Origin: Lutibacter oricola
Lineage (GTDB): Bacteria; Bacteroidota; Bacteroidia; Flavobacteriales; Flavobacteriaceae
Assembly (NCBI RefSeq): GCF_900106565.1
Contig: NZ_FNNJ01000001.1
Coordinates: 62,001 to 126,000, forward strand
Direction: 5' to 3'
DNA length: 64,000 nt
Made by a program: the position numbers and the translations under genes. The stretch's first letter is position 1. Every line of letters starts with the position of its first letter. Shown here piece after piece: positions 12,716-15,995 of this stretch. The notes under the pieces were generated by a model. The model saw only the letters and a program-made list of their open reading frames with translations, did no database searches and was not told the origin of the DNA.

Positions 12716-12731
12716 CTAAGCAAATGCTTAG
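12716..12731. promoter_or_regulatory. Palindromic operator 1, CTAAGC-N4-GCTTAG
   Basis: CTAAGCAAATGCTTAG is a perfect 6+6 palindrome lying just upstream of the -33 region of the TetR gene promoter. Identical arms recur at 13370-13385 and 13833-13848, and a near-identical site at 12749-12764. Confidence 0.75.
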
Positions 12732-12738
12732 TAAAAAT

Positions 12739-12769
12739 TTGTGTATATCTAAACAATTGCTTAGTTTTG
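12739..12769 (+). promoter_or_regulatory. Promoter of the TetR gene, overlapping operator 2
   Basis: TTG at 12739-12741 and TAGTTTTG at 12762-12769 (20-base spacer) match the flavobacterial promoter consensus. The last three bases of the operator at 12749-12764 are the first three of the -7 box, so bound repressor would block the promoter. Confidence 0.65.
12749..12764. promoter_or_regulatory. Palindromic operator 2, CTAAAC-N4-GCTTAG
   Basis: CTAAACAATTGCTTAG differs from the other three sites by one base in the left arm. It lies in the spacer and -7 box of the TetR promoter, ending 22 bp before the start codon, the usual position for autorepression. Confidence 0.72.
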
Positions 12770-12786
12770 CATTGTAATTATAAACA

Positions 12787-13350
12787 ATGGCACGTAAAAA
12801 ACAATATAACGAAGAAGAAGTAATTGAAAAAGCAATGCATTTGTTTTGGAGAAATGGGTATGAGAATACTTCAGTTCGTATGTTGGAAAAGGAAATGGGT
12901 ATTAACCAATTTTCTATGTATGCTAGTTTTGGAAGTAAGCAAGGTGTTTTTCTTGAAAGTTTAAAAACTTATAAAAGAAAAACAAAATTGATGTTTGATA
13001 AATTGAGAAAGTCAAACAATGGAATAGAAGATATTAAAGAATTCTTTTATAATTCTATAAAAGTTTCTGAATTGAAAGGAAATAATAAAGGTTGTTTTGT
13101 TACCAATACATATAATGAGTTTGCTCAAAGTGAAGATGAAATGATTAAAGAGCAGATGAGCAATTTTATGGATAATTTGAAAGAAATATTTATTGAAAAA
13201 ATAAAATCAGATTCTTCTAAAGATGAAGAAACCGTTTTAAAACAAGCTAACTATTTATTATTAGCAAAACACGGATTAGCGGCTGCAACAAGAGTAAATT
13301 CTAAAAAGGAAATGGAAGATTATATTGAAATGATCTTTAAAAGCATATAA
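12787..13350 (+). CDS. TetR/AcrR-family transcriptional regulator
   Basis: The 187-aa protein has an N-terminal TetR HTH (about residues 10-55: EVIEKAMHLFWRNGYENTSV, then LEKEMGINQFSMYASFGSKQGVF) and an all-helical ligand domain whose GCFVTNTYNEFA resembles the C-terminal domain of the AcuR/YxaF-like group. Two palindromic sites flank its promoter and two more precede the next two genes, so it very probably represses itself and the downstream DoxX-like and AhpD-like genes. The inducer is unknown; neighbours suggest a reactive electrophile or quinone. The ATG at 12787 gives a normal N-terminus. Confidence 0.9.
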   Translation: MARKKQYNEEEVIEKAMHLFWRNGYENTSVRMLEKEMGINQFSMYASFGSKQGVFLESLKTYKRKTKLMFDKLRKSNNGIEDIKEFFYNSIKVSELKGNNKGCFVTNTYNEFAQSEDEMIKEQMSNFMDNLKEIFIEKIKSDSSKDEETVLKQANYLLLAKHGLAAATRVNSKKEMEDYIEMIFKSI

Positions 13351-13369
13351 CCTTTTTTTTAATCAATAA

Positions 13370-13385
13370 CTAAGCGGTCGCTTAG
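13370..13385. promoter_or_regulatory. Palindromic operator 3, CTAAGC-GGTC-GCTTAG
   Basis: A perfect copy of the TetR-linked palindrome lies 19 bp before the DoxX-like start codon. No consensus TAnnTTTG box is visible here, so the promoter it controls is either weak or read through from the TetR gene. Confidence 0.72.
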
Positions 13386-13404
13386 TAAATAAAATAATTA
13401 TAAA

Positions 13405-13818
13405 ATGAGAAAATTAGTAAAAATAGTAACAGGAATATTAGGATTTATAATGTTAGTTCCAGGATTGGCAAAATTTGGAGAACCTTTTAAAACATTTATT
13501 TATAAACACCTTACAATTATTGGATTTCCATTTCCAGATTTTATGCAATACGTTGTAAAATTTAGCGAAGTAGGAGTAGGATTACTATTAATTTATGTTG
13601 CATTTAGAGCCAATAAATTAAATCCTTCATTTAGAAATAAATTATTCTATTTAGGAAATATAACCGTTGTGGGTATTATGATTGTTGCGGTATATACGCA
13701 TTTGCATCTAGATGTACCGGCCGAAATTTTACCTATGGAAACAAAACCTCCATATATGCCAATTGGGTATATATTTTTAGTAGCTGTAAACTTATTTTTA
13801 AACAGAAATAGTAATTAA
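13405..13818 (+). CDS. DoxX-like four-helix membrane protein
   Basis: The 137-aa product has four hydrophobic segments (about residues 5-22, 42-65, 78-98 and 115-132) and the DoxX-type start ILGFIMLVPGLAKFGEPF with a conserved Lys/Gly helix 1. DoxX-family proteins often occur with thiol- and quinone-related redox genes, and some subunits associate with oxidoreductases in membrane complexes. Here the gene lies between a TetR repressor and an AhpD-like CxxC protein, each preceded by the same operator, which places it in a stress-inducible redox cluster. Its direct activity cannot be inferred. Confidence 0.75.
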   Translation: MRKLVKIVTGILGFIMLVPGLAKFGEPFKTFIYKHLTIIGFPFPDFMQYVVKFSEVGVGLLLIYVAFRANKLNPSFRNKLFYLGNITVVGIMIVAVYTHLHLDVPAEILPMETKPPYMPIGYIFLVAVNLFLNRNSN

Positions 13819-13832
13819 AATTTAACTTAAAA

Positions 13833-13848
13833 CTAAGCAAAAGCTTAG
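13833..13848. promoter_or_regulatory. Palindromic operator 4, CTAAGC-AAAA-GCTTAG
   Basis: A perfect copy of the same palindrome, 15 bp after the DoxX-like stop and 34 bp before the AhpD-like start. Four sites within 1.1 kb define a local TetR regulon. Confidence 0.75.
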
Positions 13849-13882
13849 ATAAAATAATCAAATAAAATTAAAACAAATAATT

Positions 13883-14500
13883 ATGAACTTTTCAGAGAAA
13901 AATCACGAACACCAAAATGCAAATAGAAATTGGGTGAGTAACACATTTAAAATTCACACAGTAGAAACAGCACCAGAAGGAAGTAAACCAATGTTGGAAG
14001 CTTCAAAAAAAGCATACGGATTTATAGCTAATTTACACGGTACGTTAGCTGAATCTCCTCAAATTTATGAAGCATACCAAACATTACATAAATTATTTTC
14101 TGAATCATCATTCAATGCCGATGAATTAACGGTTGTATGGCAAACAATTAATGTAGAACACGAATGTACGTATTGTGTTCCTGCACATACAGGAATTGCA
14201 AATATGATGAAAGTAGATTCAGCAATTACTGAAGCATTAAGAAACGAAGAACCATTACCAACTGAAAAATTAGAAGTATTACGTGAAACTACATTAGAAA
14301 TTGTTAGAGAGCGTGGTCATCTTTCAAAAGAGCAAAAAGAGAAGTTTTTTACTGTAGGATATACTAACAGACAGATATTAGACATTGTTTTGGGTCTTTC
14401 ACAAAAAGTAATTAGTAATTACACAAACCATTTAGCAGAAACGCCAGTAGATAACGCGTTTGATAAATTTACTTGGAAGAAAAAAAATGGAAACGTATAA
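13883..14500 (+). CDS. AhpD-like carboxymuconolactone decarboxylase-family protein
   Basis: The 205-aa all-helical protein contains the AhpD signature EHECTYCVPAH, with the redox pair Cys95/Cys98 and His102 after it, embedded in LTVVWQTINVEHECTYC. AhpD-type members use the CxxC pair as a disulfide reductase or peroxidase, whereas true carboxymuconolactone decarboxylases lack it, so a thiol-dependent peroxidase role is favoured. It is preceded by a copy of the TetR-linked operator and followed 19 bp later by an SDR gene. The physiological peroxide or electrophile is unknown. Confidence 0.85.
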   Translation: MNFSEKNHEHQNANRNWVSNTFKIHTVETAPEGSKPMLEASKKAYGFIANLHGTLAESPQIYEAYQTLHKLFSESSFNADELTVVWQTINVEHECTYCVPAHTGIANMMKVDSAITEALRNEEPLPTEKLEVLRETTLEIVRERGHLSKEQKEKFFTVGYTNRQILDIVLGLSQKVISNYTNHLAETPVDNAFDKFTWKKKNGNV

Positions 14501-14519
14501 CTAACTAAAAAATAAAATT

Positions 14520-15254
14520 ATGAGTATTAAAATAGAAAACAAAGTAGCGTTAGTAACGGGTGCAAATAGAGGAATTGGCAAACAAATTGTTGAAACGTTT
14601 ATAGAAAAAGGAGCTAAAAAGGTGTATTTAGCTGTTCGTAATATTGCTTCAACAAAAGAGTTAGAGGAAGAATATGGAGATAAAGTGGAAACAATTCAAG
14701 GAGATGTTTCAGATGATAAATCAATAATAAATCTAGCTGCAAAAACAACTGATGTTGATATAGTAGTAAACAATGCTGGAGTTGGAACACCTCAATCAAC
14801 AATTGGTAAAAATTCAGTTGAAGATTTTAAAAATCAGTTAAATGTAAATGCATTTGGTTTGTTGAGAGTAGCGAACGCTTTTGCTAATACCTTAGAAAAA
14901 AATAAAGGAGCCATTGTGCAATTAAATTCAGTAGCTTCCATTAAAAATTTCACACCACTTTCAACATATTCTGCATCAAAAGCTGCAGCTTATTCTTTAA
15001 CTCAGGGATTACGAGTTGAGTTAGGAGCAAAAGGAGTGCAAGTATTAAGTGTTCATCCAGGACCAATTGATACTGATATGTCAGCTAGAGCTGGTTTTAC
15101 AGAAGCATTTCCAACAACTGTAGTTTCAGAAGGAATTGTTGATGCCTTAGATAAAGGAGATTTTCACTTATTTCCTGATGAAATGGCAAAACAGTTTGAA
15201 GCAGCTTATCAAAGTTTTTCAGATAATGTAGTTTTAGCTGAAGCTGAAGAATAA
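14520..15254 (+). CDS. Short-chain dehydrogenase/reductase (SDR)
   Basis: The 244-aa Rossmann-fold enzyme shows the classical SDR motifs: the cofactor loop TGANRGIG (residues 14-21), NNAG in the fourth strand, and the catalytic YSASK with the upstream Ser in LNSVAS. Basic residue Arg after the second strand (AVRN) suggests NADP(H). It follows the AhpD-like gene by 19 bp and probably shares its transcript. SDR substrate cannot be predicted reliably; aldehyde or quinone reduction fits the cluster. Confidence 0.88.
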   Translation: MSIKIENKVALVTGANRGIGKQIVETFIEKGAKKVYLAVRNIASTKELEEEYGDKVETIQGDVSDDKSIINLAAKTTDVDIVVNNAGVGTPQSTIGKNSVEDFKNQLNVNAFGLLRVANAFANTLEKNKGAIVQLNSVASIKNFTPLSTYSASKAAAYSLTQGLRVELGAKGVQVLSVHPGPIDTDMSARAGFTEAFPTTVVSEGIVDALDKGDFHLFPDEMAKQFEAAYQSFSDNVVLAEAEE

Positions 15255-15270
15255 TTATTTAGAAATATAA

Positions 15271-15302
15271 AAGAAGTGATTTCATTTTTGAAGTCATTTC
15301 TT
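15271..15302 (+). terminator. Hairpin between the SDR and FrnE-like genes
   Basis: AAGAAGTGATTTC and GAAGTCATTTCTT pair across 13 positions, including two G-U pairs that form only in RNA, with a 6-base loop. There is no T-tract directly after it, so it may be an attenuating or processing hairpin rather than a full terminator. Confidence 0.4.
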
Positions 15303-15335
15303 AATGGTTATATTCAGATTGAATAATGTTACAAA

Positions 15336-15989
15336 ATGAAAAAAAAATTAAAAATAGATATTGTTTCAGATGTTGTTTATCCTTGGTGCACAATTGGTTA
15401 TAAACGATTAGAAAAAGCAATTGAAGAGTTGGGAGTAGAAGATAAAATAGAGATTGAATGGCAACCTTTTGAATTGAATCCACAAATGCCTGCTAAAGGT
15501 CAAAATGTAATTGAACATATTGCTGAAAAATATGGTTCAAGTATAGAAGAACAAAAGCAATCTCAGGAAAGATTGACTGAGTTTGGAGCAGAGTTAGGTT
15601 TCAAATTTGATTATTTTGATGAAATGAGAATTGTAAACACCAGAGAGGCTCATATTTTATTGGATTATGCGCAAGAAGAAGGTAAGCAAACTGAATTAAA
15701 TGTACATTTTGTAACAGCATTTTTTAGTGAACGAAAAGATATTTCAAAAAGAGAAATTTTACTACAAGAAATTGAAAGCGTTGGATTAGATAAAACTGAA
15801 GCATTAAAAAGATTAGAAAACAAAGAAGCACTAGATAAAATAATAGCTAAAGAACAATTTTGGCAAAGTAGAGGTATTTCATCGGTGCCAACAATGGTTT
15901 TTAATTCAACAAGCGCTTTAAGAGGAGCACAACCAGTTGATGTTTATAAGCAAGTATTAACTCAATTATTAAGTGAAAAAGAAAATTAA
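15336..15989 (+). CDS. DsbA/FrnE-like thioredoxin-fold oxidoreductase
   Basis: The 217-aa cytoplasmic protein (no signal peptide) has the FrnE-type DsbA fold: IDIVSDVVYPWCTIGYKRLE at the N-terminus, a helical insert, and the cis-Pro loop GISSVPTMVFN near the C-terminus. Members often carry a CPWC active site. Here the first cysteine is replaced by Tyr (YPWC), leaving only Cys18, so the usual dithiol exchange is not possible in this motif. A monothiol, glutathione- or bacillithiol-adduct, or isomerase-like chemistry is conceivable. It sits 7 bp before the DUF2798 gene in the TetR-headed cluster. Confidence 0.85.
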   Translation: MKKKLKIDIVSDVVYPWCTIGYKRLEKAIEELGVEDKIEIEWQPFELNPQMPAKGQNVIEHIAEKYGSSIEEQKQSQERLTEFGAELGFKFDYFDEMRIVNTREAHILLDYAQEEGKQTELNVHFVTAFFSERKDISKREILLQEIESVGLDKTEALKRLENKEALDKIIAKEQFWQSRGISSVPTMVFNSTSALRGAQPVDVYKQVLTQLLSEKEN

Positions 15990-15995
15990 ATAGGT

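Follow-up and report, generated by a model that had tools for sequence, protein, structure and literature searches.

The four copies of the palindrome CTAAGC-N4-GCTTAG that stand among the first genes of a tetR-headed cluster in Lutibacter oricola are very probably operators of the adjacent TetR-family repressor, judging from their conserved places beside orthologous genes and from the co-variation of their letters with DNA-reading residues of the protein. We propose that they act through one promoter carrying a weak operator and, further downstream, an internal repressor roadblock placed at a U tract, a model to which we give an even chance. The sequence-only reading of the window, i.e. the whole stretch of 64,000 nucleotides analysed, had already taken the palindrome for the TetR binding site, and had reported three perfect copies and one near-perfect copy, two at the TetR promoter, one before the DoxX-like start and one before the AhpD-like start. 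Our scan recovered all four at the same positions (Table 1), and, in agreement with that reading, found no further copy in the window: exactly four sites occur at up to one mismatch, against a mean of 0.10 and a maximum of 2 in 100 shuffles, and at up to three mismatches the 15 matches in the window are not above the 17.91 expected by chance. The search of the whole genome (4,124,325 bases) that the same reading had proposed returned the exact form CTAARC-N4-GYTTAG at these four places and at no other, so the regulon as defined by exact sites is this cluster alone. At one mismatch the genome holds 33 places in total versus 31 for the reversed pattern, i.e. weaker sites are at chance level, and a wider regulon in this genome is therefore unsupported.

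Table 1. Features of the tetR-headed cluster, in window coordinates.
Feature	Position	Strand	Sequence	Remarks
Operator 1	12716-12731	.	CTAAGCAAATGCTTAG	Perfect palindrome; just 5' of the -33-like TTTG
-33-like element of the tetR promoter	12738-12741	+	TTTG	Read from the sequence; 20 nt before the -7 box
Operator 2 (promoter operator)	12749-12764	.	CTAAACAATTGCTTAG	One mismatch, in one half-site
Sigma-A -7 box (TAnnTTTG)	12762-12769	+	TAGTTTTG	Overlaps operator 2
TetR-family repressor gene	12787-13350	+		187 aa; R31/Q41, Cys103
T8 tract	13353-13360	+		2 nt past the tetR stop, 9 nt before operator 3
Operator 3	13370-13385	.	CTAAGCGGTCGCTTAG	Perfect; in the tetR/doxX-like gap
DoxX-like small protein gene	13405-13818	+		137 aa; weak profile match
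Operator 4	13833-13848	.	CTAAGCAAAAGCTTAG	Perfect; in the doxX-like/ahpD-like gap
AhpD-like gene	13883-14500	+		205 aa; CxxC-xxx-H motif
SDR oxidoreductase gene	14520-15254	+		No exact TAnnTTTG before the gene
DsbA-like thioredoxin-fold oxidoreductase gene	15336-15989	+		No exact TAnnTTTG before the gene

The regulator scores 40.6 bits against Pfam TetR_N (PF00440; cut-off 24), its AlphaFold model is all-helical (pLDDT 88.5, pTM 0.79), and its nearest named relative among the best 80 of 199 relatives is that of Lutibacter citreus, with 81% identity. The AhpD-like protein resembles the solved AhpD of PDB 6e8l (E 1.4e-46), and C95, C98 and H102 of its CxxC-xxx-H motif are invariant (18/18). It has no Pfam match, its relatives (E 0.17 and 0.00029) stay below the CMD cut-off, and its 38.4 bits against NCBIfam peroxid_rel TIGR01926 fall short of the cut-off of 81.8. 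The DoxX-like protein matches DoxX (E 0.028) and DoxX_2 (E 0.012) below both Pfam cut-offs, and its L. citreus ortholog (DoxX, E 0.0027) is also under the cut-off. The SDR and DsbA-like genes are probable members of the operon, and further genes of the cluster follow the latter. Among 80 orthologous loci, the gene right after tetR is most commonly an AhpD relative (68 loci), the others having an unmatched gene on the same strand (9), an SDR gene (1), a gene on the opposite strand (1) or the end of a contig (1). With an AhpD relative next to tetR in 68/80 loci, the conserved core is tetR-ahpD, and the doxX-like gene between the two looks like a local addition. The gap from the end of operator 3 to the DoxX-like start codon is 19 bp, and that from the end of operator 4 to the AhpD-like start codon is 34 bp.

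The orthologous loci carry the palindrome as well, as the earlier reading required of a true binding site. We compared 81 loci, i.e. the window and the best 80 of the 199 TetR relatives, and took as an operator any site with at most two mismatches from CTAA[AGC]C-N4-G[CTG]TTAG. On the 5' side of tetR, 78/81 loci have an operator, at about -38 relative to the start; on the 3' side 79/81 have one, about 20 bp past the stop, and 76/81 have both. The 81 include L068, L072 and L094, where the promoter site is missing from the range considered, and L088 and L090, where the 3' site is missing. At most one mismatch was seen in the 80-bp stretches of 78 loci on the 5' side and 78 on the 3' side, against 0.1 and 0.075 in 40 shuffles. 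In L090 the next gene is on the opposite strand, and neither the 3' operator nor a T tract is found there. A scan of the weak TetR homologs L030-L038 and L041-L045 gave no perfect CTAAGC site. Across 38 genomes of the genus, we counted 22 exact copies of CTAAGC-N4-GCTTAG, spread over 16 of the genomes, and none of the reversed control. Of the 22, 14 adjoin TetR relatives, 6 adjoin tRNA-Cys genes, 1 is an efflux site and 1 is within an rpoD-like CDS, the gene names having been assigned by eye except for the tRNAs. At the six tRNA-Cys places (L127, L130, L131, L132, L133 and L135, at about position 1501), the pattern has longer arms and a T run directly after the tRNA and is its terminator, so a search for the palindrome alone would miscount such terminators as operators. 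The efflux site is a perfect operator in L. citreus (L046, 1650-1665), ending 27 bp before a gene at 1693 that encodes an efflux adapter (HlyD_D23) about 6.3 kb upstream of tetR; a GbsR/MarR-like gene, recognized by eye, precedes the adapter gene. From this placement, the TetR regulator may control an efflux pump in L. citreus.

The letters of the operator go together with two residues of the repressor. A second class of loci has CTAAAC or CTAACC sites instead of CTAAGC, and we compared 98 TetRs (the 81 and L024-L026, L039, L040 and L141-L152), of which 94 have a class and 4 are unlabelled; L027-L029 and L153-L165, with another operator type or none found, lie outside this set. Where base 5 of the operator is G, R31 and Q41 are present in 59/59 TetRs; where it is A or C, residue 41 is lysine in 34/35 (methionine in the other one) and residue 31 is glutamine in 32/35. 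The distant members follow the same rule, L039 and L040 (Q31, K41) having an A-type site and L024-L026 (R31, Q41) a G-type site; L153 has R31/Q41, yet no CTAA-type site was found there. In trees built from the C-terminal part, the class switched twice, each time together with residues 31 and 41, and with two independent switches (sign test, p 0.5) significance is out of reach. In the AlphaFold model, residue 31 takes the second position of helix 30-37, and helix 41-48, the expected recognition helix, begins with residue 41. By offset the two residues correspond to Arg28 and Gln38 of Tn10 TetR, which we take to be tetO-reading residues. A lysine tolerating T or G on the opposite strand would explain the use of both A and C. 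In L116 (Seonamhaeicola algicola), the TetR has M41 and I30 and the sites read CTAAAT-N4-ATTTAG, possibly a third specificity class. Furthermore, a sister TetR group with R41 has GGAAC-N4-GTTCC-type sites in the same 16-bp frame. CTAAGC with R31/Q41, CTAAAC or CTAACC with K41 and the sister GGAAC type together make up a natural data set for TetR DNA specificity.

Operator 2 sits between the -33-like TTTG and the -7 box of the tetR promoter. The accessible part of PMC9723704 gives TAnnTTTG as the -7 consensus of sigma-A in F. psychrophilum. The orthologous promoter operators overlap this box exactly in 72/78 loci and one letter off in 6/78, the TA of the box being the operator's own, so that the operator fills the gap from a T-rich or TTG element to TAnnTTTG. 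The promoter site and the 3' site differ in symmetry: operators are asymmetric at the promoter in 66/76 loci versus 9/76 on the 3' side, and an asymmetric promoter site is combined with a symmetric 3' site in 57/76 loci, the reverse in none. Where a promoter site accompanies a perfect CTAAGC 3' site (49 loci), the promoter site is exactly one base off in 47 and symmetric in 2; the one-off forms are CAAAGC (23), GATTAG (14), CTAAAC (8) and CCAAGC (2), which require at least 8 changes on the tree. We read this asymmetry as repeated weakening at different bases, but it could instead come from promoter constraint. Operators 1 and 2 are 33 bp apart, about 3 helical turns, a spacing that possibly reflects paired binding. 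Such a pair before tetR is found only in the window and in L. citreus, where the counterpart of operator 1 is at -71, among the 81 loci (at most two mismatches from the CTAAGC form).

The junction after tetR has an operator and no recognizable -7 box. Of the 79 loci that have a 3' site, 77 were used for counting boxes (2 have no start codon within 200 nt), and none of the 77 junctions has TAnnTTTG or TAnnTTGY from the 3' operator up to the start of the next gene; TAnnTTTG is present in the 60 nt before tetR in 71/77 and in the last 150 nt of tetR in 1/77. Shuffled junctions would have it in 2.24 of 77, so 0/77 is an absence, and not proof of selection against the box. From 12762 to 15990 the window has a single exact TAnnTTTG in its intergenic parts, that of tetR at 12762. 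The suggestion of the sequence-only reading that each gene is separately controlled is thus unsupported, and with no box at the junctions, transcription coming from the tetR promoter is the more likely target of the internal operators.

The junction also holds a T tract at a nearly constant distance from the operator. A run of at least five T precedes the 3' operator in 77/79 loci, on the coding strand in all 77; it is 7-8 long in 64/77 and ends exactly 9 nt before the operator in 70/77, across 62 kinds of spacer. Its start lies 0-6 nt from the true tetR stop codon in 76/77 and 15 nt from it in one, and that the run is close to the stop codon too, and not to the operator alone, is counted against the roadblock model. 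At least seven T within 25 nt of the stop codon were found in 67/73 tetR gaps versus 4/264 other co-directional gaps, one of these 4 exceptions being itself a tetR gap with a mis-called start. By eye, the module of T tract and N9 is also seen in 11/13 of L141-L153 and in L024, and it occurs twice, with 9 nt each, in L092; in L152, L116 and L039, A5-7 plus T3 replaces the T tract, and the T3 also ends 9 nt before the site. Operator 4 and the two extra L. citreus operators have no preceding T tract. Two other accounts of the junction were discarded. An intrinsic terminator would need a hairpin, and none that is stable was found in the 30 nt preceding the run, where the lowest MFE was -5.1 and no value fell below -6. 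A general T7-N9-palindrome element is not seen either, with 1 match at a spacing of 9 and 0-4 at other spacings in 1,306,255 bases of the same loci outside the tetR junction.

The model that we favour would work as follows. A single sigma-A promoter (12738-12769) would drive tetR and the downstream genes, and operator 2, with one base of a half-site broken, would bind the repressor more weakly and leave a basal expression of tetR. The perfect operators at 13370 and 13833 would lie inside the transcribed region, and TetR on 13370 would stop the polymerase coming through tetR. The RNA 3' end of the stalled polymerase would then be on or close to the U8 tract, whose distance to the operator is 9 bp, and this position would favour release. 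An inducer removing TetR from the DNA would both free the promoter and lift the block.

The main rival to the roadblock model is that each internal operator covers a promoter of its own, the T tract serving as a -33 or upstream element and the -7 box being unrecognized or that of another sigma factor; we regard this as somewhat improbable, though a serious contender. It agrees with the T tract being near the -33 position if the operator fills the spacer, and with the letter that follows the run, which is A in 58/77 and G in 19/77, the latter giving a -33-like TTTG. Moreover, a T run, N9 or N10 and an operator occur within the tetR promoter in 13/14 members of the sister group (9 nt in 11, 10 nt in 2), and TAnnTTTG is found within 80 nt before tetR in 12/12 of L154-L165, so the T run could be a promoter element. 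In the sister loci L154-L165 and L028, the run has at least six T and starts 0-4 nt past the stop of a co-directional gene of about 250 aa. In F. psychrophilum, sigma motifs were reported for only 63.4% of 1884 putative TSSs (PMC9723704, in its accessible part), so a promoter without TAnnTTTG is possible, the known motif not being at every flavobacterial start. The letters past the 3' operator are mildly conserved as well (ATATAA), but ATAW on the opposite flank of the operator is their mirror counterpart, so they fit a longer operator. Further points against internal promoters are the absence of both box forms from the junctions, set against TAnnTTTG upstream of tetR in 71/77, and the distribution of the T run, which is dispensable at the promoter site (none in 27/78) and not at the 3' site (none in 2/79).

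It is unlikely, in our view, that the T tract acts through DNA shape, as an A-tract aiding TetR or the polymerase, with the internal operators forming roadblocks without a U effect or taking part in a loop. Operators 2 and 3, 621 bp apart, could loop, three distant members have an A run plus T3 in place of the T tract, and the promoter site has a T run too in 51/78 loci, 4 nt before the operator in 46/51. However, the two spacings are unlike (4 at the promoter versus 9 internally), and the internal run keeps its T on the coding strand in every locus that has it. That the palindromes are RNA hairpins, i.e. terminators or stability elements, and not protein sites is highly improbable: they could form a hairpin of 6 bp with a loop of 4 nt, and the same pattern with a T run does serve as the tRNA-Cys terminator in six genomes of the genus, but the promoter copy is upstream of the predicted start and not self-complementary in 66/76 loci, the letters are conserved beyond mere pairing and match the TetR residues, and a run of at least five T within 3 nt past the 3' operator occurs in 1/79 loci (L082).

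Within the roadblock model, we further suggest, tentatively and at somewhat less than an even chance, that T7-8-N9-operator is a dedicated ligand-switchable terminator of Bacteroidota, at which TetR would make the polymerase halt and let go once past the regulator gene, and through which the inducer would allow read-through. Read in this manner, it would be a bacterial counterpart of the T tract plus roadblock of the Pol I terminator, combined with a weakened promoter operator, and a single promoter would then yield the repressor at a basal level while keeping the targets under tight control.

As for the signal, Cys103 is present in 98/98 TetRs, and the model places it just before helix 104-112. 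CifR of Pseudomonas aeruginosa (PDB 6nsn, 6nsm) is the second-best solved relative by profile (E 5.6e-22), and the invariant KGC cysteine, Cys103, aligns with the CifR cysteine that is a serine in 6nsm. CifR is described as epoxide-responsive in the available part of PMC8244358, and by analogy the alignment suggests an electrophile as the inducer, which would act on Cys103. The two systems differ in that cifR is divergent from its targets and that, among the 10 proteins scanned here, Pfam recognized no epoxide hydrolase or alpha/beta-hydrolase. The AhpD-like, SDR and DsbA-like targets together with the L. citreus efflux adapter point to an electrophile or peroxide signal, which we consider likely from these gene contents, and the cluster is plausible as a candidate redox regulon. 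CssR of C. glutamicum was set aside as a redox model, its cysteines having no redox role in what is available of its description.

Two parts of the proposal are already known, to go by the sources available in part: the TetR-first operon with one promoter, and natural repressor roadblocks. The former is the arrangement of AcuR in the acuR-acuI-dddL operon of Rhodobacter sphaeroides, where the TetR gene comes first, the operator overlaps the single promoter, no internal promoter turned up in experiments and the ligand, acrylate, is reactive (PMC3017554, accessible part). The AcuR operator, TAATAGAC-n6-GTCTATTA, can by our own reading be placed in the same 16-bp frame. The same text describes one operator, with other letters, and AcuR is kept low there via leaderless translation, which sets that system apart from ours; in addition, our TetR is not AcuR by the NCBIfam equivalog (27.3 bits, cut-off 247).

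A design close to an operator after the repressor gene is that of engineered arsenic reporters, in which a second ArsR site after arsR reduces read-through. Natural bacterial roadblocks include PurR, GalR, ArsR, CcpA, CodY and LacI, and, as in our proposal, a repressor bound to the DNA past the start halts the elongating polymerase and cuts downstream transcription; the accessible part of PMC10310618, on the other hand, describes neither a TetR roadblock nor a T tract ahead of the bound site, its one mention of T-rich DNA concerning a Cas12a PAM. In yeast, polymerase I is stopped by Reb1/Nsi1 15 bp upstream of the site in a T-rich sequence, and its release in vitro requires an RNA hairpin (PMC12366685, available in part). 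The likeness lies in the T tract at a fixed distance from a protein site, the T8 here spanning 10-17 bp before the 16-mer as compared with about 15 bp for the yeast T-rich tract. The difference, as far as that source goes, is that the Pol I terminator is eukaryotic, depends on a hairpin, for which the junction has no stable counterpart, and is without a small-molecule repressor switch. Our literature searches, which see part of the literature, returned neither this system nor a terminator made of a repressor and a T tract, nor the pairing of a repressor site with a T tract at a fixed distance.

If the model is true, a one-promoter operon would give the repressor and its targets different control, by means of a leaky promoter operator and, in the intergenic region, a strict operator paired with a U tract, and repressor-dependent termination would be testable on one small DNA element.
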